Origin: Corallococcus praedator
GTDB taxonomy: Bacteria > Myxococcota > Myxococcia > Myxococcales > Myxococcaceae
Length of the DNA stretch: 54,062 bases
Direction of reading: 5' to 3'
NCBI RefSeq assembly: GCF_003612125.1
Contig: NZ_RAWI01000017.1
Location: 1-54,062 of the forward strand
The position numbers were made by a program, and so were the translations under genes. The notes beneath the pieces were generated by a model. That model did not search any database, had not been told where the DNA came from, and was given only the letters and a program-made list of their open reading frames with translations. Shown here piece by piece: positions 9,984-50,916 of this stretch (the stretch's first letter is position 1; each line of letters starts with the position of its first letter).

Positions 9984-10525
9984 GCGTGGACCTCCCGGCG
10001 CGGCGGGATGGACAGCCCGAAGCGTGGCGAGCGGGCACCCACCGGATGCTCGGCGCGCAGCACGCGGTGCACGAAGTAGCCCAGCATGGACAGCCACTGC
10101 ACCGTCCACAGCCCCACCCGGATGCGGTTCATCCGCATCCACGCGCCCAGCACCTCCGCCAGCCGCTCGGGCGACGTGATGCCGGCCGCCATCTCGTCGT
10201 TGTACGGGAAGATGAAGATGCGCGTGAGCAGCGTGGCCACCACCACGGCCAGCAGCACCATCAACGGATACCACCGCAGCGCGGACCTCCGCTCCCGCCA
10301 CGCCAGCACCACCGCCGACAGCAGCATCACCATCGTCATGCCGGTGAAGAAGCGCGTCGCGGCCTGCACCTGCGGCACGAACTGGAGGTAGTAATTGTCC
10401 ACCGTGAGCTGGGGCGCGATGGGGAACGTGAACAGGATGAGCGACCACCCCGTGCCCAGGTACATGGACACGCACAGGAACAGCAGGCACGCGTTCGCCA
10501 GGTGGAGAAGCTCGCCGCGCTTCAT
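9980..10525 (-). CDS. Small integral membrane protein, DUF1772-like
   Basis: A 181-aa protein with four predicted transmembrane helices (about residues 10-33, 55-75, 82-104, 135-155). The segment TRIFIFPYNDEM followed by a conserved-looking WMRMNRIR resembles DUF1772/anthrone-oxygenase-like membrane proteins, where an Asn/Arg pair lies between the last helices. That assignment is tentative. The start ATG at 10525 overlaps the stop of the acetoacetate-decarboxylase-like gene by 4 bases (ATGA), and its own stop overlaps the patatin start in the same way. Expression is therefore translationally coupled to both neighbours. Confidence 0.8.
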   Translation of the reverse strand: MKRGELLHLANACLLFLCVSMYLGTGWSLILFTFPIAPQLTVDNYYLQFVPQVQAATRFFTGMTMVMLLSAVVLAWRERRSALRWYPLMVLLAVVVATLLTRIFIFPYNDEMAAGITSPERLAEVLGAWMRMNRIRVGLWTVQWLSMLGYFVHRVLRAEHPVGARSPRFGLSIPPRREVHA

Positions 10526-11439
10526 GGCCAGACGCCCTGCGTGCTTTCGGAGATGCTCCGCGTCGACACCCGGGCCCCGTCCGGAGGCGGCATCGGCGTC
10601 TGGTCCTGTCCCAGGTCCACGACGCTCTCCAGCCCTTCCGGATACGTGTCCATGGGCAGCGTGGGCTGGGTGAGGAACCACGCCTCGAAGTGGTCATCCA
10701 GCACGCCGCTCGACGACGGGAAGAACCCGGTGAAGAACGCGCGCGGGGAGATGCTCAGGTCCCGCAGCGCCTGCACGCGCGGGTGGTCCCCCAACTCCAG
10801 CGTGGCCCAGGCCTTGCTCCCGAGCCGGAAGCCGAACCGGCCCCGGAAGTAGATGGTGGACTTCATCAGCATCCCGCGGAACGCGCAGTAGTTCACCGCC
10901 GACGTCCGGATGGGCAGCCACGCGTGCGCCGGCCGTTCAATGCGCACGCGCACCGCCTCCTGGCCTCCTTCCGCGTAGCGGCTGCTGACCGACCCGTCCT
11001 CCATCCGGAAGTCCAGGCGGGCCAGGTGCTTGGGCATGCCCCAGATGCCCTTGCCGCCCTTCACGGACACCTCCGTGTTGACCGGCAGGTCCACCACGTA
11101 CTGCCCCACACCGTAACGCTTGGGGAACAGCAGCGGCAGCAGCGGCGGCGCGGGCCTGCGCCCATGCGTGCACGCCAGCGCGATGCTGAACTCGATGTAC
11201 GCGCCGATGTCCGTCTTCTTGTAGTCGATGACGGAGATGAGCAGCACGCCCTTGTCCCTGGACACGCGCAGCGGGTGCAGTTCATTGCCGGGCAGCAGCG
11301 CGGCCACGCGCCGCGCATCCACCTTGAAGGCGGCCACCAGGGCCGGGGACCCCTGCGAGTTCACCGGCAGCGCGTACGGGATGTCATCCACGCGCGAATA
11401 CCGACCCGACTGCCGCTGGATGCGTCTGGGGAGGAACAT
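10522..11439 (-). CDS. Acetoacetate decarboxylase family protein
   Basis: A 305-aa protein of the acetoacetate decarboxylase (ADC) fold. The segment GIWGMPKHLARLDF (Lys137) matches the ADC active-site stretch G-[FY]-P-K-K-[LV]-A; the first lysine (Schiff base) is kept, the second is His. Other family traits are the early LPVNSQGSPALVAAF strand and the central YIEFSIALAC strand. The C-terminal Pro/Ser-rich 40 residues look disordered. Many family members are not decarboxylases, so the reaction is uncertain. The start ATG at 11439 follows the upstream hydrolase by 13 bases; AGG-rich sequence upstream serves as ribosome site. Confidence 0.8.
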   Translation of the reverse strand: MFLPRRIQRQSGRYSRVDDIPYALPVNSQGSPALVAAFKVDARRVAALLPGNELHPLRVSRDKGVLLISVIDYKKTDIGAYIEFSIALACTHGRRPAPPLLPLLFPKRYGVGQYVVDLPVNTEVSVKGGKGIWGMPKHLARLDFRMEDGSVSSRYAEGGQEAVRVRIERPAHAWLPIRTSAVNYCAFRGMLMKSTIYFRGRFGFRLGSKAWATLELGDHPRVQALRDLSISPRAFFTGFFPSSSGVLDDHFEAWFLTQPTLPMDTYPEGLESVVDLGQDQTPMPPPDGARVSTRSISESTQGVWP

Positions 11440-11452
11440 GGCAGGCCTTTCG

Positions 11453-12505
11453 TCACACCGGGCGATCCAGCTCGGCGAGGAGGAGGGGGAAGACGTCCTG
11501 GGCCGCGTACTTGCCCATGAAGACGTCCAGGTGGCCGTAGCCGGGCAACACGTGCAGCGCGTGCCGGCCTGGTTGGAAGCGGTCCATGTATTCGAAGCTG
11601 CGGCGCTGGCTCTCCGCGAGGAAGCAGCGGTTCTCCTCGCCCGCCAGGAAGACGAAGCGCGCGTCCGTCTGGGGCTCGCGCTCGCCCAGGTCCTCCGGCA
11701 GCGCGGTGAAGTGCTCCACCGGCACCAGGTGGCCCGCGCGCACGCACGCCTCCATCTGCTTGAAGAAGCTGAAGGGCACCGGCCCGAACTCGTGCTGGAG
11801 CCAGTCATGCGTGCGGGCGTTCAGGTTCTCGTGCCGCCACAGCACCGGGAAGCCCGTGCCGTAGGTGAAGCTCGTCCAGCGGCAGACCAGGTTGTCGCAC
11901 TCGTGATGCGTCGCCTTCACCACGCGCGTCAGCGCCCGGGCCGTGCGCGTGGGGCCGCCGAAGGCCCACTGCGGATCCAGGTACGGCGTCAACTGGGAGA
12001 CCAGCGGGACGGCGTAGCGCAGCTTCAGCTTCGCGGACGCGGGCACCACCGGGTGCAGCGACACCGCGTTGCTGACGATGACGTCCACCTCCGGCAGCAG
12101 GCCCGCCACCGCGGCCATCGCGAAGCTGGTGGACCCCTGGCAGTGGATGACCGCCTTGACGGTGTCATGCCCGGTCTCTTCCAGGATGGTGCGGATGGCG
12201 GGCGGGTGGTCCAGCACGGCGGCCTGGTCCAACGTCCATTCGCCGGGCTCCACGTCCATGCTCGCGCGCCAGTTCTCCAGCCACACGTCGTAGCCATCGT
12301 CGATGAGCGCATCCACCACCGTCTGGCGCACGGGTGCGCGGAAGATGTTGCCGCGTACGCCCGCGCCATGCACCAGCACCACCGGCCCCTTGGCCGGCTC
12401 CTCCTGTCCGCGCAGGTGCACCAGGTGCAGCGCGCGACCGTCGCCCGCGAGGAAGGGCACAACCTCCTCGGAGTAACGTGGTGAATGAAACGGTTCGACG
12501 GACAT
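11453..12505 (-). CDS. Alpha/beta hydrolase with cysteine nucleophile
   Basis: A 350-aa alpha/beta-hydrolase-fold protein. The oxyanion region is VLVHGAGV (residues 43-50). The nucleophile elbow reads VIHCQGSTS, so the position normally filled by Ser in G-x-S-x-G is Cys122. The catalytic His is His325 in PGYGHLD. The acid position appears to be Glu in AGEENRCF rather than Asp. Cys nucleophiles occur in dienelactone hydrolases and PHA synthases; the same H-C-x-G elbow is also found, as far as I recall, in hydrolase domains fused to GMC oxidoreductases. First gene of the eight-gene minus-strand run, so its upstream region (12506-12683) should hold the operon promoter, shared with the divergent 116-aa gene. 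Confidence 0.85.
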   Translation of the reverse strand: MSVEPFHSPRYSEEVVPFLAGDGRALHLVHLRGQEEPAKGPVVLVHGAGVRGNIFRAPVRQTVVDALIDDGYDVWLENWRASMDVEPGEWTLDQAAVLDHPPAIRTILEETGHDTVKAVIHCQGSTSFAMAAVAGLLPEVDVIVSNAVSLHPVVPASAKLKLRYAVPLVSQLTPYLDPQWAFGGPTRTARALTRVVKATHHECDNLVCRWTSFTYGTGFPVLWRHENLNARTHDWLQHEFGPVPFSFFKQMEACVRAGHLVPVEHFTALPEDLGEREPQTDARFVFLAGEENRCFLAESQRRSFEYMDRFQPGRHALHVLPGYGHLDVFMGKYAAQDVFPLLLAELDRPV

Positions 12506-17373: not shown

Positions 17374-17979
17374 TCAACCGGACGCCGCGGTGGGGTGCTC
17401 TTCCAACAACACCGCCAGCTTCTCCAGCGCCAGCCGCGCCCGCGTCTTCACCGTGCCCAGCGGGTGTCCCGTGCGCTCGGAGATCTCGCTCTGCGACAGG
17501 CCCTCGAAGTACGCGAGCATCACCACCTCGCGCTGCTCCGGCGGCAGCTGCGTCAGCGCCTCGCGCACCCGCGCCTGCTCCTGCTTCGTGGACGCGGAGG
17601 CATCCGGCGCCGGCGGCATCGCACTCACCGGGGGCGGCTGCTGGCCTACGCCCTCCACCATCCGCGACACCGTCCCCAACGAACGCAGCCGGTCGATGGA
17701 GCGCGTGCGCGCGATGGTCGTGACCCACGTCTCCAGTCCGCCGCGCGAGGGATCGAACTCCCGCGCACGCCGCCACACGTCCAGGAAGGCCTCCTGCAGC
17801 ACCTCTTCCGCGTCCGCGCGCGTGGGCAGCAACCGGACCGCGATGGCGAACGCCCGCGCTGAACACCGCGCGTACACCGCGCGCATGGCCTCCGCGCTGC
17901 CGAGCGCCACCTGCCGCAGCAGGTCGCGATCGGCCGACAGGTCACTCGCTTGCTGAGCGGAGGAGTCGGTAGGCGCCAT
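17374..17979 (-). CDS. ECF RNA polymerase sigma factor
   Basis: A 201-aa sigma-70-family factor of the extracytoplasmic-function type. Region 2 spans residues about 15-85 (VRLLPTRADAEEVLQEAFLD, then ARTRSIDRLR). A Pro/Ala-rich linker is at about 95-120. Region 4 is at about 130-185 (LPPEQREVVMLAYFEGLSQS, then GTVKTRARLALEKL). ATG at 17979 is chosen because GGGAAG lies upstream; an in-frame ATG at 18024 would add 15 residues. No anti-sigma factor is adjacent: the next minus-strand gene is the basic protein and the divergent neighbour is glgE. Control may therefore be transcriptional or by a distant partner. Confidence 0.92.
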   Translation of the reverse strand: MAPTDSSAQQASDLSADRDLLRQVALGSAEAMRAVYARCSARAFAIAVRLLPTRADAEEVLQEAFLDVWRRAREFDPSRGGLETWVTTIARTRSIDRLRSLGTVSRMVEGVGQQPPPVSAMPPAPDASASTKQEQARVREALTQLPPEQREVVMLAYFEGLSQSEISERTGHPLGTVKTRARLALEKLAVLLEEHPTAASG

Positions 17980-18190
17980 GTTCTTCCCGGATACCGCAAC
18001 CGGTGGGGCGGATCCCAGCTTCAACTATCGAAGCCCGTTCACCCAGCCCCTGAGGGTAGTCGCCTGTCCCCTCCATCCCTAACGTTGACCGGCCAACGCG
18101 ACCAGGCGGTCGCCTTCTTCAATCAACAACACCCGCACATTGCCGCCTGGAGCCACCCACTCACAGTCCTATAAGGCACCGCCAGCCGAT

Positions 18191-39432: not shown

Positions 39433-39505
39433 CGTCCGCCGCGCGACACACTCCTTCCCCCCACAGGCATCCGGCCGGGCTCGGGCTCCGTAGAGTCCTG
39501 CACCC

Positions 39506-40732
39506 ATGCGTCCGCACTTCCTGTCGTCGAAAGGTGTTTCGCGCACCGCGCTCGGGCTGACCCTGGCGGTGTCGCTGGGCCTCGCCGGCTGTGGCCAGAC
39601 GCCCTCGGCGGAGCGCGTGCCCTTCACCCCCGCCACCGACGGCGAGGTGCTGGAGCAGGTGCCGGCGACCGCGACGGATGCGAAGGCCCGGGAGCGCGCC
39701 GCGCTGCGCCGGGCCCTGGCCGCCCGCTCGGATCAACTGGATCTGGCGCTGCGGCTGGCGCGGCTGGACATCGAGGAGGGGCGCGCGTCCGGGGACCCGC
39801 GCTACCTGGGCCGGGCGCAGGCCGCGCTCGCGCCCTGGTGGGACGCGGCCACCCCTCCTCCCGGCGTGCGCCTCTTGCGCGCCACCATCCTCCAGGGCCG
39901 CCATGAGTTTCCCGCCGCGCTGGCGGACCTGGATACCCTGGTGCGCGAATCCCCCGACGACGCTCAGGCCTGGCTCACACGCGCCGTCGTACTGGGCGTG
40001 CGCGGTGAACACGCGGAGGCATCGAAGAGCTGCGCGAGGCTCGCGCCCCTGGCGGGTCCGCTGGCGGGCGCGGTGTGTCAGGCGCAGGTGAAGAGTCTGG
40101 CGGGCCGCTCGAAGGAGGCCCAGACGCTGCTGTCCGCCGCCCTGGCCCGGGGTGCCCACGGACTGGAGGAGCAGGCGTGGGCGCTGTCCACGCTGGCGGA
40201 GGCCACCGCGCGCGCGGGTGACACCGACCGCGCCACGAAGCTCTTCGCCCGCGTGCTGTCCCTGGATCCGGCTGATGCCTACACGCGCGCCGCCTACGCG
40301 GATCTGTTGCTGGATCTGGACCGGCCGCGCGACGTCATCGCCCTGGTGAAGGACCACGGCCAGGACGACAACCAGCTTTTGCGCCGGGTGCTCGCGGAAG
40401 CGGCCCTGGGCACGCCGGAGGCGGCCGCGCTCGCCGCCGAGCTGGGCTCGCGCCACGCCGCCAGCCACCTGCGGGGAGACGCGCTGCACGCGCGCGAGGA
40501 AGCCCGCTTCGCCCTCCACGTCCTGAAGGATGCCGCGAAGGCGCTGAAGCTCGCCCAGGTGAACTGGGAGGTGCAGCACGAACCGTGGGACGTGCGCCTC
40601 CTCATGGAGACCGCGCTCGCGAACCATACCCCCGAGGCCGCCGCCCCCGCCCTGCGCTTCCTGGAAGCGAGCGGCGCGGACGACCCCGGCCTGATGGCGC
40701 TCGCCGAACGCGTGCGAAAGGCGTCCCCATGA
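39506..40732 (+). CDS. TPR-repeat lipoprotein
   Basis: A 408-aa lipoprotein with lipobox LAGC (Cys29). From residue about 65 to the end it is alpha-helical with tetratricopeptide-like repeats; typical pairs are PPGVRLLRATILQGRHEFPA, DAQAWLTRAVVLGVRGEHAE and DPADAYTRAAYADLLLD. It probably scaffolds a protein assembly in the envelope. Its stop overlaps the start of the HupE/UreJ-type gene by 4 bases (ATGA), so the two are co-translated and likely act together. Confidence 0.88.
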   Translation: MRPHFLSSKGVSRTALGLTLAVSLGLAGCGQTPSAERVPFTPATDGEVLEQVPATATDAKARERAALRRALAARSDQLDLALRLARLDIEEGRASGDPRYLGRAQAALAPWWDAATPPPGVRLLRATILQGRHEFPAALADLDTLVRESPDDAQAWLTRAVVLGVRGEHAEASKSCARLAPLAGPLAGAVCQAQVKSLAGRSKEAQTLLSAALARGAHGLEEQAWALSTLAEATARAGDTDRATKLFARVLSLDPADAYTRAAYADLLLDLDRPRDVIALVKDHGQDDNQLLRRVLAEAALGTPEAAALAAELGSRHAASHLRGDALHAREEARFALHVLKDAAKALKLAQVNWEVQHEPWDVRLLMETALANHTPEAAAPALRFLEASGADDPGLMALAERVRKASP

Positions 40733-41856
40733 AGGCCCTGGCCCTGGCCGTGCTCCTCCTGCCGCTGGCGGCGCTGGCCCACAAGCCGAGCGACAGCTAC
40801 CTGCACCTGGACCGCGCCGGTGACGGCTTCACCGGACGCTGGGACGTGGCCCTGCGCGACCTGGAGGAGGTGCTCGTCCTGGACGCGGACGGCGACGGCG
40901 CCATCACCTGGAGCGAGCTGCGCGCGCGGCAGGCGGACGTCGCGGGCTACGCGCTCGCCCGGCTGAAGCTGTCCGCGCAAGGCGCTGGCTGTCCCCTGTC
41001 CCCCGACTCCGCGCTCCGGGTGGTGCGCCACTCCGACGGGGCCTATGCCGTCGTCGGCTTCACCGCCGCGTGCCCGGCTGTGCCCGTGGCGCTGGACGTG
41101 GACTATTCGCTGCTCTTCGACCGCGACCCGCAGCACCGGGGCATCGTGCGGGTGGGCAGCGATGGCGCGGGCGAACCGCTGATCCTCTCCGCCACGCGTC
41201 ACACCGCCCGGGTGTCCCTGGAGGGCCTGTCCCCCTGGCGACGCTTCGGGCAGATGGTGCACTCCGGCGTCGAACACATCTGGGCCGGCGTGGATCACCT
41301 GCTCTTCCTCCTGGCGCTGCTGCTGCCGTCCGTGCTGCGGCGCGACAGCGCGACGGGCCGGTGGGTGCCGGTGACGGACTTCGCTTCGGCGGTGAAGGAC
41401 GTGGTGAAGGTGGTGTCCGCCTTCACGCTGGCCCATTCACTCACCCTGAGCGCCGCGTCCCTGGGCTGGGTGTCGCTGCCGTCGCGCCTGGTGGAGTCCG
41501 CCATCGCGGCCAGCGTCATCGTCGCCGCGCTCAACAATGTCTTCCCGTTGATGGATCGCACCCGCTGGATGGCGGCGTTCGCGCTGGGGCTCCTGCACGG
41601 CTTCGGCTTCGCGTCGGTGCTGGCGGATCTGGAGCTGCCCGCGGGCAGCCTCGCGGTGACGCTGTTCGGCTTCAACGTGGGCGTGGAGCTGGGGCAGCTC
41701 GCGTGCGTCGCCGTCTTCCTGCCCCTGGCGTACCTGCTGCGCGGCACGCCCGTGTATCGCCGGGCGCTGCTCGTGGGCGGCTCCGCGGTCATCGCGCTGG
41801 TGGCGTGCGCGTGGTTCGCGGAGCGCGCGTTCGGCGTGGGCGTGTCCTTCACCTGA
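40729..41856 (+). CDS. HupE/UreJ-family membrane protein with EF-hand-like loop
   Basis: A 375-aa protein with a signal peptide (MKALALAVLLLPLAALA). Residues 18-170 form an exported domain that includes DADGDGAITWSEL (about residues 46-58), a good EF-hand calcium loop. The C-terminal half has about six or seven transmembrane helices with the HupE-type metal-binding signature HSGVEHIWAGVDHLLFLLAL and the second family motif LHGFGFASVL. HupE/UreJ proteins are nickel or cobalt permeases or related transporters; this exported-domain variant has no known substrate. It is followed by a terminator-like hairpin. Confidence 0.85.
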   Translation: MKALALAVLLLPLAALAHKPSDSYLHLDRAGDGFTGRWDVALRDLEEVLVLDADGDGAITWSELRARQADVAGYALARLKLSAQGAGCPLSPDSALRVVRHSDGAYAVVGFTAACPAVPVALDVDYSLLFDRDPQHRGIVRVGSDGAGEPLILSATRHTARVSLEGLSPWRRFGQMVHSGVEHIWAGVDHLLFLLALLLPSVLRRDSATGRWVPVTDFASAVKDVVKVVSAFTLAHSLTLSAASLGWVSLPSRLVESAIAASVIVAALNNVFPLMDRTRWMAAFALGLLHGFGFASVLADLELPAGSLAVTLFGFNVGVELGQLACVAVFLPLAYLLRGTPVYRRALLVGGSAVIALVACAWFAERAFGVGVSFT

Positions 41857-41860
41857 CGCC

Positions 41861-41878
41861 CCTGCCCTCCGGGGCAGG
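41861..41878 (+). terminator. Hairpin after the HupE/UreJ-type gene
   Basis: CCTGCCC (41861-41867) pairs with GGGCAGG (41872-41878) around a 4-base loop, 5 bases after the stop codon. The following sequence is only mildly T-containing. It probably separates this transcript from the DUF4331 gene. Confidence 0.45.
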
Positions 41879-42004
41879 CCTTCCGTCCGCTCCGGAAATC
41901 CACGCGAATCCCAGCAGCGTATTGCCATGACCCGGAGGTATGTCCTGCTCCTGCAAGACACCCGGGGACTCCAGCAAACACATCCCACGCAGCAGGAGGT
42001 TCAG

Positions 42005-43525
42005 ATGAGAGCGAAGAAGCTCGCGGCGGTGCTTACCGTCGCGACCACGCTGGGCGCGTCTGGCGCCATGGCGTCGAGTCACCGGGAAGCACCCTTCATC
42101 ACGAAGTCACCCAAGGTCGACGCGACCGACTTCTACATGTTCCGCAGCTATGAGGCGGACCGCGCGGACTTCGTCACGTTGATCGCCAACTACATCCCCT
42201 TCCAGGAGCCGTACGGCGGTCCCAACTTCTTCACCCTGGATTCGGAAGCGCTGTACGAGATCCACATCGACAACAACGGGAACGGGGAGGAGGACCTCAC
42301 CTTCCAGTTCCGCTTCACCAACACGCTGGCCAACGCCAACAACGGCGCGACGCTGACCATCGGCACCGGCGCCCAGGCGAAGACGGTCGCCGTGCCGCTC
42401 TTCAACGTGGGTCCCATCACCACGGCGGACCAGTCCAGCCTGAACGTGCAGGAGTCCTTCACGCTCAAGGTGGTCCGCGGCGACCGCCGCACCGGCACCG
42501 CCAAGGACGTGACCAACGCGGCGGGCGGTTCCCCCACGTTCCGCAAGCCCACGGACTACATCGGCACCAAGTCGCTGGGCCTGCCCGCCGCGTACGAGGC
42601 CTACGCGAAGGAGCACATCTATTCGGTGAACATCCCGGACTGTGCCACCCCGGGCAAGGTGTTCGTCGGTCAGCGCAAGGAGTCCTTCGCGGTCAACCTG
42701 GGTCCGGTGTTCGACCTGGTGAACGCGCCCGGGGCCACCATCACCAACGCGGCCAACCGCAACGCGGTGACCAACCCGCTGGCGGGGAACAACATCACCA
42801 CGCTGGCCCTGGAAGTCCCCATCGCCTGCCTCAAGGCCGGCACCCAGGACGTCATCGGTGGCTGGACGACCGCGAGCGTGCGCCAGGCGCGCGCCATCAA
42901 CCCGTCGCCCACGTTCGCCAAGCCCTCGCGTGAAGGCGGCGCGTGGCAGCAGGTCAGCCGCCTGGGCATGCCGCTGGTGAACGAGATCGTCATCGGCCTG
43001 CCGGACAAGGACAAGTTCAACGCGAGCGAGCCCAAGGACGACGCCCAGTTCGCCACCTACGTGACGAATCCCACCCTGCCTGCCCTGCTGGAGACGCTCT
43101 TCGGCACGAAGGCGCCCACCGTCTTCCCGCGCACGGACCTGGTGACGGCGTTCCTCACCGGCGTCACCGGCGTCAACGCCAACGGCTCCACGGCGGAGAT
43201 GCAGCGGCTGAACATGGCGCTGCCGGCCACCGCGAAGGCCACCCAGAACAACCTGGGTGCCGCGGGCTGCTTCAAGGACGGCAAGCTGGACACGTCCCTC
43301 ACCGGGTGTGATCCGGCGGGCTTCCCCAACGGCCGTCGCCCCGGCGACGACGTCGTGGACATCGAGCTGCGCGTGGCCATGGGCTACCTGCTGGCCGACG
43401 ACACCCAGGCCCCGTCGCGCAACACCGCGTTCCACGACGCCGTGCTCCAGGATGCGTCACAGTTCGACGCCACCTTCCCCTACCTGCGGACGCCCAACGC
43501 GGGCGCCAACGGCGACGGGACGTGA
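42005..43525 (+). CDS. DUF4331-domain exported protein
   Basis: A 506-aa protein with signal peptide (MRAKKLAAVLTVATTLGASG, cleavage after AMA). The mature start SSHREAPFITKSPKVDATDF is the hallmark of DUF4331, followed by ADFVTLIANYIPFQEPYGGP and FTLDSEALYEIHIDNNGNGE; the rest keeps the family pattern (PLVNEIVIGLPDKDKFN, RRPGDDVVDIELRVAMGYL). The family is widespread and of unknown function; the D-x-N-x-N-G-x-x-E-x-D stretch could bind calcium. ATG at 42005 has GCAGGAGG upstream, 5 bases away. It is followed after 4 bases by a small lipoprotein gene, and preceded by TPR and HupE-type genes in an order I have seen in other genomes. Confidence 0.93.
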   Translation: MRAKKLAAVLTVATTLGASGAMASSHREAPFITKSPKVDATDFYMFRSYEADRADFVTLIANYIPFQEPYGGPNFFTLDSEALYEIHIDNNGNGEEDLTFQFRFTNTLANANNGATLTIGTGAQAKTVAVPLFNVGPITTADQSSLNVQESFTLKVVRGDRRTGTAKDVTNAAGGSPTFRKPTDYIGTKSLGLPAAYEAYAKEHIYSVNIPDCATPGKVFVGQRKESFAVNLGPVFDLVNAPGATITNAANRNAVTNPLAGNNITTLALEVPIACLKAGTQDVIGGWTTASVRQARAINPSPTFAKPSREGGAWQQVSRLGMPLVNEIVIGLPDKDKFNASEPKDDAQFATYVTNPTLPALLETLFGTKAPTVFPRTDLVTAFLTGVTGVNANGSTAEMQRLNMALPATAKATQNNLGAAGCFKDGKLDTSLTGCDPAGFPNGRRPGDDVVDIELRVAMGYLLADDTQAPSRNTAFHDAVLQDASQFDATFPYLRTPNAGANGDGT

Positions 43526-43529
43526 TGCC

Positions 43530-43826
43530 ATGCGCAGCCTGAGAGCCATGGCCTGCATCCTCGCGCTGGGCGCAACCCTGGCCTACACCGGATGCAGCGA
43601 CGACGACGACGACAACAAGCCGGACGGCGGAAGCACGCCCGATTCCGGCACGCCCGACTCCGGCACCCCGGACGCCGGCCCCACGGCCATCGAGTTCACG
43701 ACCTTCGTACGGGACACCATCGTGAACCAGACCAACGAGACGGGCACGCCCGTGACGCTCGACGACAAGACCTTTGTCGACACCGAGCCGGCGGACGCGT
43801 TCCCGCCCAGCTTCTTCCAGCCCTAG
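43530..43826 (+). CDS. Small acidic lipoprotein
   Basis: A 98-aa lipoprotein with lipobox YTGC (Cys22), directly followed by SDDDDDNKPDGG and tandem PDSGT repeats. The C-terminal half (residues 52-98) contains VDTEPADAFPPSFFQP and a short strand region. It starts 4 bases after the DUF4331 stop and is followed by a strong terminator, so it is the last gene of that transcript. No function known; it probably partners the DUF4331 protein at a membrane. Confidence 0.85.
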   Translation: MRSLRAMACILALGATLAYTGCSDDDDDNKPDGGSTPDSGTPDSGTPDAGPTAIEFTTFVRDTIVNQTNETGTPVTLDDKTFVDTEPADAFPPSFFQP

Positions 43827-43846: not shown

Positions 43847-43889
43847 GCCCCGATGCCCGGCAAGAACGCCGGGCGTCGGGGCTGTTTTC
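43847..43889 (+). terminator. Intrinsic terminator
   Basis: A 15-bp stem, GCCCCGATGCCCGGC (43847-43861) with GCCGGGCGTCGGGGC (43868-43882), contains one G-T wobble pair and a 6-base loop. TGTTTTC follows. This is the best intrinsic terminator in the window, 20 bases after the small lipoprotein stop. Confidence 0.85.
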
Positions 43890-45339: not shown

Positions 45340-46608
45340 GTGTCCATCCGTTCCGCGACGGCCGCCTTCGGGCTCGCCGCCGCACTGCTCGCGACGCGCC
45401 CCGCCGGCGCGTCTTCGCCCGGCGCGCGCGCCGCTCCACAGCGGCTGTCCGGTCCACTCCTCACGCTCGAGGCCGCCCTGGCGCTGGCCCGGGAGCGGGC
45501 CCCCGCCCTGCTGGAAGCCCGCGCTCACGTCCAGGCCGCCCGGGGTCAGGTGGCCGGCGCCGCGCCGCTGCTCCGGAACAACCCGCAGCTCGACCTGCAG
45601 GCGGGCCCGCGCCGGCTCGTCACCGGAGAGCGCGGGATGGATCTCGCGGTGGGGCTATCACAGCCGCTCGAAATCGGAGGCCAGCAGGGCCTGCGCCGGG
45701 ACGCCGCGCGGGCCGGACTCTCCCGCGAAGAAGCCCAGGTGCGCGATGCGGAACGGCTCGCCCTGGGTGAGGTGGCCGCCCGCTTCCTGCGCGTCCTGCA
45801 CGCCCAGGAGCGCGTGAAGCTTGCGGACACCGTCGTGGTGGCGTTGACCGAAACGGTTCACGCCACCGAGCGCCGCTTCGAGGCCGGAGACGTGCCGGTC
45901 GTGGACGTCAACGTGGCGCGGGTGGCCCGGGCGCGGGCGCGGGCGGAGCAGGCCATCGCCAGGGGCGAGGTGACGGCCTGGATGGGAGAACTGCGCGCCC
46001 TGCTGGGGGCCACCGTCCCGGAGGTCCCTGGCGTCCAGGGGGACCTGCGGACCCTCGCGCTGGCGCCGCTCTCCAGGCCCGGGGGCAAGACGCTGGAGCG
46101 CGCGGACCTCACGGCCCTGGAGGAGGAACAGGCCCAGGCCCGGGCCACCGCCACCCTGGGCCGGCGCGAGGTGCTCCCGGACGTGACGGTGGGCGTGCGC
46201 TACCAGCGCGAGGCGGACGAAACGGCGCTGCTGGGAACGCTCAGCGTGCCGCTGCCCGTCTTCGCCAGGGGACAGGAGGCGCGCGCCACGGCAGAGGCCG
46301 ATGTAGGCCGCATCGAGAGCATGCTGAAGGTCGCGCGGCTGGCCGTGTCGAACCAGGGCTCCGCCGCGGGCGAGCGGTACTTCGCGCGCGTGGAGGCACT
46401 GGAGCTGCTGGAAGCGGAAGCACTGCCGCTGCTCACCGACAACGAATCGCTCGCCCGGCGCTCCTATGACGCCGGAGAGCTGGACCTCGCGGGCTTCATG
46501 CTGATCCGGCGCGATGCGCTGGAGGCGCGGACGGAGTGGCTCGACAGCCTGCTCCAGACCGCCCTCGCCCGCGTCCAATACGCCGTGGAACTGGGAGTCA
46601 CGCCATGA
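45340..46608 (+). CDS. TolC-family outer-membrane factor of metal RND efflux (CzcC-like)
   Basis: A 423-aa outer-membrane efflux protein with signal peptide (ATAAFGLAAALLATRPAGAS) and the two long helical repeats of the TolC/CzcC fold (residues about 45-230 and 240-420), rich in Ala, Arg and Glu. Family stretches are LTLEAALALARERAPALLEA and the second repeat with LPDVTVGVRYQREADETALL, SVPLPVFARGQ and SYDAGELDLAGFMLIRRDAL. It forms the exit duct of the tripartite pump with the next two genes. GTG at 45340 is chosen to put the signal peptide first. Its stop overlaps the adaptor start by 4 bases. Confidence 0.92.
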   Translation: MSIRSATAAFGLAAALLATRPAGASSPGARAAPQRLSGPLLTLEAALALARERAPALLEARAHVQAARGQVAGAAPLLRNNPQLDLQAGPRRLVTGERGMDLAVGLSQPLEIGGQQGLRRDAARAGLSREEAQVRDAERLALGEVAARFLRVLHAQERVKLADTVVVALTETVHATERRFEAGDVPVVDVNVARVARARARAEQAIARGEVTAWMGELRALLGATVPEVPGVQGDLRTLALAPLSRPGGKTLERADLTALEEEQAQARATATLGRREVLPDVTVGVRYQREADETALLGTLSVPLPVFARGQEARATAEADVGRIESMLKVARLAVSNQGSAAGERYFARVEALELLEAEALPLLTDNESLARRSYDAGELDLAGFMLIRRDALEARTEWLDSLLQTALARVQYAVELGVTP

Positions 46609-47798
46609 AGTCCACCCTCCTGCTGCTGACCGCCCTCGTCGTGGGCCTCACCGCCTGCAAGTCCTCCAAGGCCGGACACGACGATGACCACGAGGACGGA
46701 CACGACGAAGCAACCCCGTCGAAGACCCACGACGAGCCCGAGGACGGCCACCATGTGCACGTCCCCCAGGAGATGCTCCGGGACCTGCGCGTCACCACCG
46801 CCAGGGTGGAGGCGCGCCCCGGTGGGGAGAGCGTCACCGCGCTGGGGGAGCTGACCTTCAGCGAGGACGCCTACGCGGAGGTGTCCACGCCAGTGCCCGC
46901 GCGGGTGGCCGCCGTCGTCGTCACCACGGGCCAGGCGGTGAAGCAGGGCCAGCGGCTGGCGGATCTCCAGAGTCCGGAGCTGGGCCGCGCCCGCGCGGAG
47001 CTCCAGGCCGCGCAGGCCCGGGCCACCGCCGCGAGGCAGGCCGCCGAGCGCAAGCGCACGCTGGCCGACGAGCGCATCGTCGCGCGCAAGGACGTACAGG
47101 CCGCCGAAGCGGAGGCCGCCGCGTCTGAGGCGGAGGTCGCCGCCGCGAAGGCGTCGCTGCTGTCCCTGGGCGCGAGCGGTGCGTCCAGCGACGGCACCCC
47201 GAACTTCGTGCTCAAGGCGCCCATCGACGGCACGGTCATCGAGCGCTCGGCGCGGCTGGGGCAGATGGCGGATCCCTCCCAGCCCCTCTTCCGCATCGGG
47301 GACCTGTCATCGCTGTGGCTCATCGTGCACGCGTTCGAACGGGACGCGGTGCGCCTGAAGCACGGCACGGAGGCTCGCGTCACCTTCGCCGCGTTCCCGG
47401 GCCAGGAGTTCCCCGCGAAGGTGGGCCACGTGGGCCAGCGGGTGGACCCGTCCAGCCGGACCATTCCCGTCCGCCTGGAGCTGGACAACGGCAAGGGGCT
47501 GTTGCGCCCGGGCATGTCCGCGACGGCGTCCGTGCCGTTGGGGGACTCGAACGCCACGCTCACGGCGGTGCCGGCGGCGGCGCTCCAGCGGGTGGAGAAC
47601 GGCTGGGTGGCCTTCATTCCGACCGAGGAGCCCGGGGTCTTCGAGCAGCGCGAGGTGGGCCGGGGGCGCAGCGTGGGCTCGCTGGTGGAGGTGCTGTCGG
47701 GGCTCGCCGTCGGAGAGCAGGTGGTGGTGGAGGGCGCCTTCCTGCTCAAGGCCGAGGTGGAGAAGTCCAAGGGCGGGGGCGACGAACATGGCCACTGA
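46605..47798 (+). CDS. Membrane-fusion adaptor of metal RND efflux (CzcB-like lipoprotein)
   Basis: A 397-aa periplasmic adaptor lipidated at Cys18 (LTAC). Directly after the lipobox is an Asp/His-rich stretch of about 40 residues (GHDDDHEDGHDE, then GHHVHVP) likely to bind metal. The adaptor then shows a barrel-sandwich half motif (VSTPVPARVAAVVVTTGQAV), an alpha hairpin (about 115-170), the second lipoyl half (LKAPIDGTVIERSARLGQMA) and beta-barrel segments (LWLIVHAFERDAVRL). The C-terminus again ends in His (DEHGH). It overlaps the pump gene by 11 bases, so translation is coupled. Confidence 0.93.
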   Translation: MKSTLLLLTALVVGLTACKSSKAGHDDDHEDGHDEATPSKTHDEPEDGHHVHVPQEMLRDLRVTTARVEARPGGESVTALGELTFSEDAYAEVSTPVPARVAAVVVTTGQAVKQGQRLADLQSPELGRARAELQAAQARATAARQAAERKRTLADERIVARKDVQAAEAEAAASEAEVAAAKASLLSLGASGASSDGTPNFVLKAPIDGTVIERSARLGQMADPSQPLFRIGDLSSLWLIVHAFERDAVRLKHGTEARVTFAAFPGQEFPAKVGHVGQRVDPSSRTIPVRLELDNGKGLLRPGMSATASVPLGDSNATLTAVPAAALQRVENGWVAFIPTEEPGVFEQREVGRGRSVGSLVEVLSGLAVGEQVVVEGAFLLKAEVEKSKGGGDEHGH

Positions 47799-50700
47799 TC
47801 CGCGCGCGTCGCTGCCGGGGCGCATCCTCACGGCGTCCTTCGCGAGGCCCGGCCTGACGGTGGTGCTCATCCTGGCGCTGGCGGCGTTTGGCGCGGTGGC
47901 GCTCAAGAACCTGCGGCAGGACGTCTTCCCGGACCTGTCCGCGCCCATCTTCAACATCATCGTGCAGAACCCGGCCATGGGCGCGGAGGAGCTGGAGACG
48001 GCGGTGGCCATCCCCATGGAGGTGGCACTGGCGGGCCTGCCGGAGGTGCGCCGCATCCGGTCCACGTCGCAGTTGGGCGTCACGCAGGTGACGGTGGAGT
48101 TCGAACCGGACGCGGACTACTTCCGCAGCCGCCAGTACGTTGTGGAGCGCGTGGCCCAGGCGGAAGGAGAGCTGCCCCCCGGCACCGACGCGCCGCTCGT
48201 GTCCAGCCTCACGGGCCGCCTCAATGAAGTCTTCGAGTTCACGCTGGAGGCGGAGCCCGGCAGCGCGGACCTGATGGCGCTCCGGGACCTGGCGGAGTTC
48301 GACATCAAGAACCGGCTGCTCGCGGTGCCCGGGGTCGCGGGCGTGGAGCGGCTGGGCGGCTACCTGCGCCAGTTCCAGGTGTTGTTGGATCCGGATCAGC
48401 TCGTGGCGCGAGGCATCACGCTCAACGAGGTGCAGCACGGCCTGGAGGGCGCCAGCGTCAACGCGTCCGGGGGCTTCGTGGTGCAGGGCCCCATGGAGTG
48501 GACCGTGCGCGCGCTGGGCCGCGCGGAGTCGGTGGAGGACCTGAACAACACCGTGGTCGCGCTGCGCGACGGCACGCCGGTGCTGCTGGGGGACGTGGCG
48601 GACGTGCGCGAGGCCCCGGCCCTGCGGCGGGGCATGGCCCACCGGCTCAAGGGCGAGGTGGTGAGCTGCCGCGTGAGCAAGCAGTTCGGCGCGGACACGG
48701 TGCGGGTGACGGAGGGGGTGCGCGCGGCCATCGACGAGCTGCGCCGCTCGCTGCCGCCGGGCGTCGCGCTGCGCGTCGTCTACGATCAGTCGGAGCTGGT
48801 GGGCTCCGCGCTGGGAGGCGTGGGCCGGGCCATCCTGCTGGGCGCGTTCCTGGTGGTGCTGGTGCTCTTCCTCATGCTGGGGGACTGGAGGGCGGCGCTC
48901 ATCGTCACGCTCACCCTGCCCCTGTCGCTGGCGCTGGCGGGGCTGCTCCTGAAGGCGGCGGGCATCGGGTTGAACACGATGACGCTGGGAGGGCTGGCCA
49001 TCGCGGTGGGCCTGCTGGTGGACGCGGCGATCATCGTCGTGGAGAACGTCATCCACGACCTGCGCGAGGGCAAGGGGCGCCGTTCGGTGCGCGACGAGGC
49101 CCTGCACGCGGCGCTGGAGGTGGGCCGGCCCATCGCCTTCGCCACGCTCATCGTCGTGTCGGTGTTCATTCCGTTGTTCGCGATGACGGGCATCGAGGGC
49201 CGCATGTACCAGCCGCTCGCGGCGGCGGTGGTGGCGTGCCTGGCCGCGTCGCTCGCGCTGGCGCTCACGCTGGTGCCGGTGGTGTCGGGGCTCCTCTTGC
49301 GAGCGCCGCGCGAGGACGCACCGGAGGACGTGTGGCTCATCCGCAAGGCGAAGGCCGTGTACGCGCCGCTGTTGGAGGCGTGCATGCGCCGCGCGGGGCT
49401 GGTGCGCGTGGTGGCGCTGGCGATCACCGTGCCCGCGTTGGGGCTGGCGTTCATGGTGGGCAGTGACTTCATGCCGAGACTGGATGAAGGCGCGTTCCTG
49501 CTCCAGACGGTGTTGCCACCGGAGGCGTCGCTGGAGGAGGTGGACCGGCTCAACCACCGGGTGGAGGACGTGCTGCGCGAGTTCCCGGAGGTGGAGGACG
49601 TGGTGCGCCGCACCGGCCGCGCCGAGCGCACGGAGGACCCGATGCCGCACACGCTCTCCGACGTGCTGGTGGTGCTGAAGAAGGACGTCGTGGGGGGGCG
49701 GGAGGCGTTGGAGGCGCGGATGCGCGAGGCGGTGGAGAAGGTGCCGGGCGTGTCCGCGCTCTTCACCACGCCGCTGGGAATGCGCATCGACGAGGGGTTG
49801 GGCGGCAGTCCGGCGGACCTGTCGGTGCGCATCTTCGGGCCGGACCTGGACACGCTGGCGGCGCTCGCGGAGCGCACGCGGGTGTTGATGGCGAAGGTGG
49901 AGGGGCTGGAGGACCTGCGGGTGGAGAAGCTGAGTGGGCTGCCCCAGCTGCGCATCCAGGTGAACCGCGCCGCGGTGGCGCGGGTGGGCCTGACGCCGGG
50001 GGACGTCATCAAGGCGATCCGCGTGGGGCTGGTGGGCGAGGACGCCGCGCAGATCTGGAAGGGCCAGCGCCGGTACGACCTGGTGTTGAAGCTGGCGGAC
50101 CACCGCCGGGGCGACGTGAACGCGCTGCGCAACCTGCTGGTGGACGGGCACGACGGCACGCGCATCCCGCTGGGACAGCTGGCGACGATTGAAGAGACGT
50201 TCGGCGCGGGCAGCGTGCGGCGGGAGGCGGGCAGCCGGCGCATCGCGGTGGAGGCGGGGGTGTCCGGCCGCGACCTGGGCGGCACGGCGAAGGAGCTGCG
50301 CGAGGTGCTGGCCACGCAGTTGAAGCTGCCCACGGGCTACTTCGTGGACGTGGGCGGCAAGGTGGAGAGCCAGGAGCGCGCGGCGCAGTCGTTGACGATG
50401 GCGATCGCGGTGGCGCTGCTGGCGGTGTTCATCCTGTTGTACCTCGCGTTGGATTCGGTGGCGGAGGCGCTGGTCATCCTGGCGACGCTGCCGGACGCGT
50501 TCGTGGGCGGCATCCTCGCGTTGCTCATCGCGGGGGAGACCTGGAACGTGTCCAGTCTGGTGGGGCTCATCGGCCTGTTCGGCATCGCGGTGCAGAACGG
50601 GTTGGTGCTCGTGTCACAGACGAAGGACCTGCTCGCCCGGGGCAAGCCCTTCCCGGAGGCCGTGCGCGAAGCGAGCCTCGGCCGGGTGAGGCCCAAGCTG

Positions 50701-50916
50701 ATGACGGCGGGCACGGCGATCCTCGGCCTATTGCCCCTGCTGGTGCTGCCGCTGCATGGCACGGAGATCGAAAGGCCGCTGGCGGTGGTGATGGTGGGAG
50801 GGCTTGTGACGTCCACCCTCTTCACGCTGCTGGCGCTGCCCACGTTCTACGCGTTGGTGCATGGGCTCCAGGAACGTCTCGCGGCCCGCCGGGCGGCGCG
50901 CAAGGCCACCGCGTAA
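47788..50916 (+). CDS. Heavy-metal RND efflux pump (CzcA/CusA family)
   Basis: A 1042-aa inner-membrane proton-driven pump with twelve transmembrane segments and two periplasmic loops, ending the tripartite set. N-terminal ILTASFARPGLTVVLILALA and the porter-domain sequence follow the HME-RND pattern. In TM4 the proton-relay motif reads AIAVGLLVDAAIIVVEN: Asp412 and Glu419 match the conserved Asp and Glu, but the first Asp of the CzcA-type D-F-G-x3-D-G-A motif is Ala406. This resembles the CusA/monovalent-type pattern more than the Zn/Co/Cd type. The metal is therefore not certain. The ATG at 47788 overlaps the adaptor gene. It precedes a convergent toxin/immunity pair by 15 bases. Confidence 0.95.
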   Translation: MATDPRASLPGRILTASFARPGLTVVLILALAAFGAVALKNLRQDVFPDLSAPIFNIIVQNPAMGAEELETAVAIPMEVALAGLPEVRRIRSTSQLGVTQVTVEFEPDADYFRSRQYVVERVAQAEGELPPGTDAPLVSSLTGRLNEVFEFTLEAEPGSADLMALRDLAEFDIKNRLLAVPGVAGVERLGGYLRQFQVLLDPDQLVARGITLNEVQHGLEGASVNASGGFVVQGPMEWTVRALGRAESVEDLNNTVVALRDGTPVLLGDVADVREAPALRRGMAHRLKGEVVSCRVSKQFGADTVRVTEGVRAAIDELRRSLPPGVALRVVYDQSELVGSALGGVGRAILLGAFLVVLVLFLMLGDWRAALIVTLTLPLSLALAGLLLKAAGIGLNTMTLGGLAIAVGLLVDAAIIVVENVIHDLREGKGRRSVRDEALHAALEVGRPIAFATLIVVSVFIPLFAMTGIEGRMYQPLAAAVVACLAASLALALTLVPVVSGLLLRAPREDAPEDVWLIRKAKAVYAPLLEACMRRAGLVRVVALAITVPALGLAFMVGSDFMPRLDEGAFLLQTVLPPEASLEEVDRLNHRVEDVLREFPEVEDVVRRTGRAERTEDPMPHTLSDVLVVLKKDVVGGREALEARMREAVEKVPGVSALFTTPLGMRIDEGLGGSPADLSVRIFGPDLDTLAALAERTRVLMAKVEGLEDLRVEKLSGLPQLRIQVNRAAVARVGLTPGDVIKAIRVGLVGEDAAQIWKGQRRYDLVLKLADHRRGDVNALRNLLVDGHDGTRIPLGQLATIEETFGAGSVRREAGSRRIAVEAGVSGRDLGGTAKELREVLATQLKLPTGYFVDVGGKVESQERAAQSLTMAIAVALLAVFILLYLALDSVAEALVILATLPDAFVGGILALLIAGETWNVSSLVGLIGLFGIAVQNGLVLVSQTKDLLARGKPFPEAVREASLGRVRPKLMTAGTAILGLLPLLVLPLHGTEIERPLAVVMVGGLVTSTLFTLLALPTFYALVHGLQERLAARRAARKATA

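Follow-up and report, generated by a model that had tools for sequence, protein, structure and literature searches.

Metal-binding ectodomains of HupE/UreJ-2 proteins were characterised in 2025 (PMC12537917), and the anglerase RbAng-1a (Ang-1; 9GCE) was reported to bind Cu2+ (Kd 73.6 nM) and Ni2+ (220 nM). The second metal ligand is Asn41 in RbAng-1a, a residue described as not highly conserved, and Asp33 in Ang-2; Ang-1/HupE was proposed to serve uptake, and the neighbours of Ang-1 were given as Ni-binding DUF4198, indigoidine-A-like and PfkB proteins, with TPR proteins never named (PMC12537917). Other described systems to which our locus can be compared are the nickel permeases HupE and UreJ (PF04955), the NicO/RcnA nickel transporters (PF03824), the zinc-binding periplasmic proteins ZrgA from Vibrio cholerae and PA4063, and the SigK/RskA regulons (PMC7509140).

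We analyzed a stretch of 54,062 nucleotides from Corallococcus praedator (hereafter the window), in which four genes at 39506-43826 encode an exported TPR protein, a HupE_UreJ_2 permease, a DUF4331 protein and a small lipoprotein (Table 1). A sequence-only reading had described four exported proteins in two adjacent units, and all four genes are indeed present. A simple hairpin scan of 9 kb placed no plus-strand terminator in the interval that separates the units, the three sites that it reported being at the level of shuffled sequence (2.7). The flanking genes encode an ornithine-cyclodeaminase-like protein and an amidase, which, among the genomes found, adjoin the block only in members of the same genus; a CzcA/AcrB-type RND pump is encoded downstream in the window. 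On balance we judge it probable, if only somewhat, that the two units make up a single envelope system, organised as a regulon, for capturing and moving a transition metal, with Ni2+ or Cu2+ the likeliest candidates.

Table 1. Positions of genes, sites and candidate regulatory elements in the window.
Feature	Position	Strand	Remarks
Candidate cognate ECF sigma factor	17374..17982	-	Genome's best match to DUF4331-linked sigma, E 5.3e-31
Promoter-like motif ATCC-N16-CGTA 5' of TPR gene	39469..39492	+	Ends ~13 nt before ATG; conserved in relatives
Exported TPR protein	39506..40732	+	408 aa; lipobox LAGC in this genome; TPR_19 E 1.3e-8
HupE_UreJ_2 permease, N-terminal Ang-1-like ectodomain	40729..41856	+	375 aa; E 4.7e-48
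HupE His18 codon, predicted His1 of mature protein	40780..40782	+	ALA HKPSDSYL, cleavage after ALA; -3/-1 rule
EF-hand-like loop DADGDGAITWSE, HupE ectodomain residues 52-63	40882..40917	+	
HX5DH motif of HupE membrane domain, residues 183-190 (H183, D189, H190)	41275..41298	+	51/52 each
Promoter-like motif ATCC-N16-CGTA 5' of DUF4331 gene	41898..41921	+	
DUF4331 protein (PF14224)	42005..43525	+	506 aa with signal peptide; E 1.7e-149
S24-P30 codons, predicted mature N-terminus Ser-Ser-His-Arg-Glu-Ala-Pro	42074..42094	+	
D/N-rich loop of DUF4331, residues 89-97, possible Ca2+ site	42269..42295	+	
Small lipoprotein	43530..43826	+	98 aa
Terminator-like hairpin 3' of second unit's last gene	43847..43882	+	15-pair stem

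In the best 80 DUF4331 loci of a genome collection, homologues of the TPR protein, HupE and the small lipoprotein adjoin the DUF4331 gene in 59, 57 and 71 loci, respectively, as opposed to 0, 0 and 2 matches farther off, where the distant background comprises 518 kb of the same 80 loci and the profiles were built partly from those same loci. When the window proteins were used as single tblastn queries, TPR and HupE showed this pattern again, and a match to the small lipoprotein was obtained in L063 only. The recurrence of DUF4331 next to TPR and HupE-type genes, recollected in the sequence-only reading, is thereby borne out: the linkage spans Myxococcota, Betaproteobacteria and Gammaproteobacteria (outside Myxococcota it was drawn from plasmid records), with one or few linked loci in Alphaproteobacteria (Lichenicola), Actinomycetota (TPR and NicO) and Bacteroidota (TPR only). 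The gene set stays grouped despite inversion or splitting (L050, L052; L112), and the stop codon of the TPR gene lies within ATGA (43/58) or GTGA (11/58) across loci; the ATGA coupling suggested earlier for the window is real, the HupE start overlapping the TPR stop. A neighbourhood of genes that travel together without any joint function would agree with the presence of only part of the set in some loci; we regard it as highly improbable, given the inverted and divergent orders in which the set is kept, an upstream motif (see below) common across phyla, and the conserved stop-start overlap. The four families form a real system, their linkage and co-conservation being established by computation, as are the shared motif, the Ang-1 fold match and the conserved histidines described below.

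Members of the system are also found apart. Among 69 loci with enough flanking sequence, 15 have neither TPR nor HupE near DUF4331, so either DUF4331 can do without them or copies elsewhere serve it. In three plasmid loci of roseobacters DUF4331 adjoins a type II secretion cluster and no permease is present, and divergent myxobacterial paralogues of DUF4331 often keep TPR and have no HupE. PF13795 occurs in 88/146 genomes of the phylum and is linked to DUF4331 in only 22, thus the permease family also works elsewhere. The linkage to DUF4331 and TPR, both unnamed in PMC12537917, and to the small lipoprotein distinguishes the window HupE from the anglerases described there, one of whose reported neighbours, DUF4198, is found near DUF4331 in L065 and L142. 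In two plasmid loci of Streptomycetaceae (L147 and L148) the HupE slot is occupied by a NicO-type transporter, which, like HupE, has an EF-hand-like loop and, by prediction, a His at its exported N-terminus, although the two belong to different Pfam families. Profile comparison made no firm case for homology between their ectodomains, yielding a weak N-terminal alignment only (probability 1.5, E 0.035).

The window HupE resembles the anglerases of PMC12537917 in its PF13795 membrane domain (163.2 bits against the Pfam cut-off of 24.5), its exported beta-sandwich ectodomain and its predicted His1. This residue, His18 of the precursor, is present in 98% of 52 sequences from a set not chosen by it, and Ala precedes it at -1 in 51/52 parsed rows (parsing required the His motif and left 11/63 rows unparsed). 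Rows of another alignment, A3, were picked by the His motif, hence its 41/41 for His18 is circular and the 52-sequence alignment was used instead. The top structural match of the ectodomain model is copper-bound Ang-1 (9GCE; Z 12.4, rmsd 3.0, 132 residues), with model residue 18 falling on chain residue 1, the ligand His1; a sequence profile search with HupE did not reach 9GCE. As regards the second ligand, D44, D133 and H136 are likewise conserved in 98% of the 52 sequences. The next matches, ZrgA and PA4063 (Z 9.1 to 10.5), share the fold of the ectodomain but only 12-14% sequence identity with it, and they are not known to be fused to a permease. Structure comparison of the membrane domain returned only general helical transporters (Z 7.5 or less). 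Here the metal motif proposed earlier for HupE was found: HX5DH, a hallmark of HupE, is present in 51/52 window-type proteins and links them to the PF04955 nickel permeases, from which the window protein differs in having a large ectodomain and no PF04955 match at E 1 or better. A homologue from Pseudoalteromonas does match PF04955 weakly, below the cut-off. Beside the window HupE we noticed neither hydrogenase nor urease genes.

The loop of an EF-hand is 12 residues long and has acidic or Asn ligands at positions 1, 3 and 5 and Glu at position 12, and in the 52-sequence alignment the HupE ectodomain displays this pattern, with D52 in 50, D or N54 in 51, D or N56 in 50, W61 in 50 and E63 in 50 sequences. 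The EF-hand models of Pfam score below their cut-off on HupE (best 17.9 against 25.9 bits), and we therefore term the loop EF-hand-like. The possible Ca site of DUF4331 is conserved as well: in its D/N-rich loop D97 is invariant in a 10-sequence alignment (A1), and D89, N90, G92, D93 and D97 are each kept in at least 90% of a 54-sequence alignment (A2). These two loops are the only support for calcium. They could belong to a calcium-dependent surface or adhesion module, in which they and the acidic lipoprotein would bind Ca2+ and HupE would be secondary, and the retention of the EF-hand-like loop in about 50/52 HupE proteins and the conservation of the D/N loop speak in its favour. We find this quite improbable, since the EF-hand-like loop sits within an Ang-1-type domain and scores below the Pfam cut-offs, and permease families of the Ni/Co kind occupy the slot twice. 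Placed in a domain of the transition-metal type, the loop, which sets the window HupE apart from the anglerases of PMC12537917, more probably has a structural role as a Ca2+ site. Of the metal or calcium handling envisaged by the sequence-only reading, the metal is supported, as the HupE ectodomain resembles the crystallised Cu/Ni-binding Ang-1, and calcium as a cargo is not.

The DUF4331 protein matches its Pfam profile over the full length (499.1 bits against a cut-off of 27, positions 1-421 of 421), and one scan listed at least 581 relatives among 592 candidate stretches. The predicted mature N-terminus Ser-Ser-His-Arg-Glu-Ala-Pro is near-invariant (76/79), in a scan that relied on predicted cleavage and had SSHREAP itself among its two patterns; Ala at -1 and A/V/S/G at -3 precede Ser-Ser-His or Ala-Ser-His in 79/79 proteins, and His at position 3 is kept even in divergent members (ASH, ADH). 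ATCUN sites, which bind Cu or Ni, consist of a free mature N-terminus whose third residue is His (X-X-His). The predicted DUF4331 N-terminus is a possible Ni/Cu hook; residues 16-32 are poorly modelled (pLDDT under 50). The conserved predicted N-terminal histidines of both HupE and DUF4331 had been missed before. More tentatively, and with rather less than an even chance of being right, we suggest that DUF4331 may be an exported metal-hook family, with an ATCUN-like Ni2+/Cu2+ site bared by cleavage, that would pass its metal to a permease, either anglerase or NicO, held by a TPR scaffold, would be displayed or secreted by the export route of each phylum, and would belong to a dedicated regulon across several phyla.

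Ten divergent DUF4331 members share 49 invariant positions, many of them polar, which could equally mean an enzyme. TPR and HupE would then be accessory, loading metal into or maturing DUF4331, a secreted metalloenzyme that would itself be the purpose of the system. The type IX secretion tail of DUF4331 in Adhaeribacter, the sortase adjoining it in Streptomycetaceae and the type II secretion genes in roseobacters are in line with this, as is the occurrence of DUF4331 without the other genes; the same 15 of 69 loci also count against it, since metal loading there would need another route. Nor was any enzyme family or clear fold match obtained: PDB sequence searches with the protein and its alignment gave no match, and Foldseek and VIA-align with the model led to no convincing structural relative (lowest E 0.036; highest Z 5.6, to antibody-like sandwiches), which says nothing firm on whether the fold is new. 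We rate the metalloenzyme as rather unlikely. No paper in the literature searched names DUF4331, and the earlier statement that no function is published holds for this family; for HupE/UreJ-2 it is superseded by the 2025 ectodomain work (PMC12537917).

For the small lipoprotein, no Pfam family scored above its cut-off; near the C-terminus it bears two acidic [DE]TxEP-like motifs. Of 60 TPR homologues only 3 have a recognisable lipobox (two from Corallococcus, one of the three doubtful) and the remainder look simply exported, so the description of the TPR protein as a lipoprotein applies to this genome and is not general.

Both units are preceded by the same promoter-like motif, ATCC-N16-CGTA, a -35/-10-like pair of the kind expected of an ECF sigma regulon, which the sequence-only reading had passed over; this contradicts distinct regulation of the two units, which is unlikely. 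Finding two exact copies in the window is not in itself unusual (0.35 expected; 9/100 shuffles reach two), and one-mismatch matches are commoner there than in shuffles (35 against 16.6), hence the shuffles understate the background. Across loci, in 300-base upstream windows, the motif precedes DUF4331 in 51/77 (0.06 expected; L063, counted among the 51, was in effect part of the set that yielded the motif), with 26/77 lacking an exact copy, and it is found before 7/650 other genes, 6/16 members of TonB-receptor clusters and 2/28 sigma genes. Over the whole genome the pattern matches 94 times and its reverse 6 times, an excess that we attribute largely to codon usage, and we draw no regulon from it. 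The motif is a putative promoter.

Sigma and anti-sigma genes near DUF4331 in other bacteria, like the TonB-receptor clusters (15 loci), had been overlooked in the first reading. An ECF sigma factor with an RskA_C anti-sigma is found near DUF4331 in L069 and L145, reminiscent of the SigK/RskA regulons; the regulated genes differ, being MPT70 and MPT83 in PMC7509140, and no RskA_C was found in the genome of the window, which has five ChrR-type cupin matches. The sigma factor encoded at 17374..17982 is a lead only as a possible controller of the gene set: the next-best match in the genome has E 5.2e-15, and homologues of the candidate also occur in many genomes where no DUF4331 was found.

Such regulators, with RskA_C or ChrR-type anti-sigma factors, suggest a stress response, and the system might serve metal defence: sigma/anti-sigma would sense when the envelope holds excess metal, DUF4331 and the small lipoprotein would sequester this metal, and HupE or NicO would export it or signal. 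Among NicO relatives are efflux pumps that have His-rich loops, and a His-rich loop is seen in the NicO proteins of DUF4331 loci; the RND pump downstream in the window may point the same way. TonB receptors, in turn, are an import family, and their clusters near DUF4331, in part preceded by the motif, argue against defence. So does the uptake proposed for Ang-1/HupE (PMC12537917), and we consider defence unlikely.

Under the transition-metal capture that we prefer, the metal, the direction of transport, the role of DUF4331, its hook, the scaffold and a physical complex are what we infer from the evidence above. The same ECF-type promoter would switch on both units. HupE_UreJ_2 would act as an anglerase-like permease whose periplasmic Ang-1-like domain, probably stabilised by Ca2+ in the EF-hand-like loop, would hold the metal via the mature N-terminal histidine until the HX5DH membrane domain takes it over. 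The TPR protein, its stop overlapping the HupE start, would be the fixed periplasmic partner of HupE and probably a scaffold on which the remaining components dock. Exported DUF4331 would use its N-terminus as a metal hook, which would make it a periplasmic or surface metal carrier, and the small lipoprotein with its acidic motifs would tether or cap it.

DUF4331 is a widespread family, and its link to an anglerase-type permease, a TPR protein, a small lipoprotein and a shared motif gives it a testable role in transition-metal capture. One branch of the HupE/UreJ-2 anglerases, for which DUF4198, indigoidine-A-like and PfkB proteins were the neighbours reported so far (PMC12537917), gains a conserved set of partners and a candidate regulon. 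Such a composition suggests a protein-based gathering of Ni or Cu at the cell surface.

The four genes that the sequence-only reading had placed at 39506-43826, encoding a TPR lipoprotein, a HupE-UreJ protein, a DUF4331 protein and a small lipoprotein in two adjacent units, are all present as described. Among the best 80 of 581 relatives, the closest named locus is that of Corallococcus carmarthensis (DUF4331 identity 90%). The flanking cyclodeaminase and amidase genes were also found in the five same-genus regions compared, while in six regions from another genus of Myxococcaceae (g6) the tblastn matches were limited to the four genes; thus, the block has its own borders. Downstream of the amidase, the window encodes an outer membrane efflux protein, an adaptor-like ORF and a CzcA/AcrB-type RND pump (45361-50916), the periplasmic-adaptor-like ORF (46536-47798) being judged by eye.

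Features of the DUF4331 block and the candidate sigma factor gene in the window
Feature	Position	Strand	Remark
ECF sigma factor, candidate cognate regulator	17374-17982	-	match to L067 sigma spans 17401-17934
ATCC-N16-CGTA, before TPR-HupE unit	39469-39492	+	exact copy
Exported TPR protein	39506-40732	+	
HupE_UreJ_2 membrane protein	40729-41856	+	start overlaps TPR stop
ATCC-N16-CGTA, before DUF4331 unit	41898-41921	+	exact copy
DUF4331 protein	42005-43525	+	PF14224 at 1.7e-149
Small lipoprotein	43530-43826	+	98 residues
Terminator-like hairpin	43847-43882	+	after second unit

A DUF4331 alignment served to search the genome collection; we used the best 80 of 581 confirmed relatives and located their neighbours first by tblastn searches with the proteins of the window, then with profiles. 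According to their titles, these loci come mostly from Beta- and Gammaproteobacteria, with a few Myxococcota, one Melainabacteria and one Acidobacteria MAG. DUF4331 is adjoined by TPR in 59/80, by HupE in 57/80 and by the small lipoprotein in 71/80; beyond ~4 kb (518 kb in total) the same loci yielded no TPR or HupE match and two small lipoprotein matches. Where at least 4.2 kb of downstream sequence was available (69 loci), TPR was found in 54, HupE in 53, and neither in 15. The usual proteobacterial gene order is DUF4331, small lipoprotein, TPR, HupE; the TPR-HupE pair is inverted in locus L112 and precedes DUF4331 in most Myxococcaceae examined, and HupE is divergent from DUF4331 in L050 and L052. 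That the linkage survives such changes of order and orientation argues for selection. In a phylum draw of 146 genomes DUF4331 occurs in 33, of which 22 have PF13795 within ~3 kb (read from match positions); PF13795 is present anywhere in 88/146, hence this permease family mostly occurs unlinked to DUF4331.

Thirty-two myxobacterial regions were fetched and 26 scored (six were dropped for want of a DUF4331 profile match for centring), giving TPR in 21, HupE in 13 and the small lipoprotein in 12, where HupE is undercounted (L046 does have it) and several regions share one genus. The partner found most constantly here is TPR, often beside divergent DUF4331 paralogues without HupE. Eight such Myxococcota paralogues (L039, L040, L054-L057, L059, L061) have a TPR match nearby in 6/8 cases and HupE in 0/8. 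In the plasmid sample (12 loci examined out of 32 records with a match) TPR is next door in nine (by profile or annotation), HupE in five and NicO in two. DUF4331 is split at profile position ~295-299 in three same-genus drafts (L062 in G092, G094:C520 and G123:C860), once by a frame break and twice by contig ends, which we attribute to decay or assembly trouble.

The motif ATCC-N16-CGTA emerged from an alignment of the sequences upstream of both units in relatives from Corallococcus and g6. The window contains exactly two exact copies, one per unit (0.35 expected; 9/100 shuffles reach two). Among the 77 genome-collection loci with enough upstream sequence, 51, including L063, effectively a training sequence, carry it within 300 bp upstream of DUF4331, versus 0.06 expected from shuffles. 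At the same loci and in the same 300-base window it precedes 2/51 TPR genes, 0/51 HupE genes, 6/16 members of the TonB-receptor cluster, 2/28 sigma genes and 7/650 other genes. Bases outside the searched motif are also conserved (TG before [AC]ATCC, 40/44 each), and a copy lies upstream of a Bacteroidota DUF4331 gene (L150). In 12 myxobacterial loci both units run in the same direction. Counting exact copies and near copies, with a spacer of 15-17 and A, C or G as the last base, the motif stands before TPR in 10 of them and before DUF4331 in 10; the forms in L062 are degenerate, no copy precedes TPR in L043, and L046 is unjudgeable for DUF4331. With motif-source loci excluded, the counts are 6/6 for TPR and 3/4 for DUF4331. 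We read the motif as a putative ECF promoter. The TonB-receptor cluster, one member of which was tested against Pfam (L069 5876-7882 and similar), occurs near DUF4331 in 15 loci, up- or downstream.

Sigma and anti-sigma gene clusters are frequent neighbours of DUF4331 (26 and 23 loci, respectively); three anti-sigmas run against Pfam are of the RskA_C type (L069, L145) and the ChrR-cupin type (L068). The sigma factor from the proteobacterial locus L067, searched against the whole genome, finds its best match in the window (E 5.3e-31; next 5.2e-15). Since orthologues of this ECF sigma are widespread in the family, also where DUF4331 was not found, its role as the regulator is only a lead. In seven g6 genomes a paralogous DUF4331 gene lies ~16-29 kb from the orthologue.

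In the HupE model (pLDDT 91.4), the best structural match of the exported N-terminal ectodomain is 9GCE (Foldseek E 1.6e-5; Z 12.4, rmsd 3.0, 132 residues), with model residue 18 aligned to chain residue 1, followed by the zinc proteins ZrgA and PA4063. According to PMC12537917, 9GCE is the Cu-bound 'anglerase' domain Ang-1 of a HupE/UreJ-2 protein, which binds Cu2+ (Kd 73.6 nM) and Ni2+ (220 nM), uses His1 as a copper ligand, and is proposed to feed the permease. His1 is common to Ang-1 and, as predicted, the window HupE (ALA|HKPSDSYL), and is conserved in 98% of 52 homologues, as are the HX5DH residues (51/52) and the EF-hand-like loop (~50/52). In the model this loop lies in a helical part between strands two and three, and it is therefore taken for a putative structural Ca2+ site.

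For the DUF4331 model (pLDDT 85.6, pTM 0.87), neither fold comparison nor a PDB search with the alignment found a clear solved structural relative. We surveyed the N-termini of 79 proteins from the 80 loci: Ala occupies -1 before [Ser or Ala]-Ser-His-Arg-Glu in 79/79, and -3 is A in 61, V in 11, S in 6 and G in 1, positions free of scan-pattern selection. The exact Ser-Ser-His-Arg-Glu-Ala-Pro is the predicted mature N-terminus in 76/79, a figure enriched by selection because SSHREAP was one of the two scan patterns. The motif persists in Pfam-found myxobacterial and Actinomycetota/Bacteroidota plasmid members (in Bacteroidota the -3/-1 residues are not of the classic kind), and divergent members retain His at position three (ALA|ASH, ALA|ADH, TVA|ADH). 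The few surveyed ORFs without it appear to be disrupted genes, fragments, chance ORFs or ORFs with a wrong start; the match in L033 has no obvious signal peptide. The ATCUN motif for Cu/Ni consists of X-X-His at a free N-terminus. Model confidence is low over the N-terminal stretch, as would be expected either of a mobile hook or of a signal region with poor coverage. Ten divergent members share 49 invariant positions, which would also fit an enzyme and counts against the hook.

The small lipoproteins share two acidic [DE]TxEP-like motifs and a lipobox, the latter a selection criterion. The TPR stop codon lies within ATGA in 43 of 58 loci and within GTGA in 11, which would allow coupling to HupE. 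DUF4198, described in PMC12537917 as a secreted Ni-binding protein, is encoded near DUF4331 in L065 and L142, and a protein clustering with it upstream in the Leucothrix locus L105. There, three tandem paralogues of an exported protein of ~206-225 aa (9904-12228) follow the DUF4331-small lipoprotein pair.

In three roseobacter plasmids (L143, L144, L152), DUF4331 immediately adjoins a type II secretion cluster, possibly a dedicated exporter, without TPR or permease; a small gene after DUF4331 and an A24 prepilin peptidase are each found in two of the three. The Bacteroidota locus encodes a TonB receptor, TPR and a DUF4331 protein that bears a type IX secretion tail; it has no permease. In both Streptomycetaceae plasmid loci (L147, L148) the 'nickel transporter' beside DUF4331 is NicO (PF03824), which takes the place of HupE and likewise has an N-terminal His after the predicted cleavage and a D-x-D-x-D-G loop; profile comparison did not establish homology to the HupE ectodomain. 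Both loci also have a sortase gene, and their NicO a long His-rich loop; L148 adds a fasciclin-domain gene.

In the literature searched, DUF4331 is named in no paper and 'anglerase' appears only in PMC12537917. We conclude that the block is a real envelope system, found across phyla and apparently co-regulated. Its best reading is transition-metal capture, in which an anglerase-type permease would work with DUF4331 as a previously undescribed exported partner.
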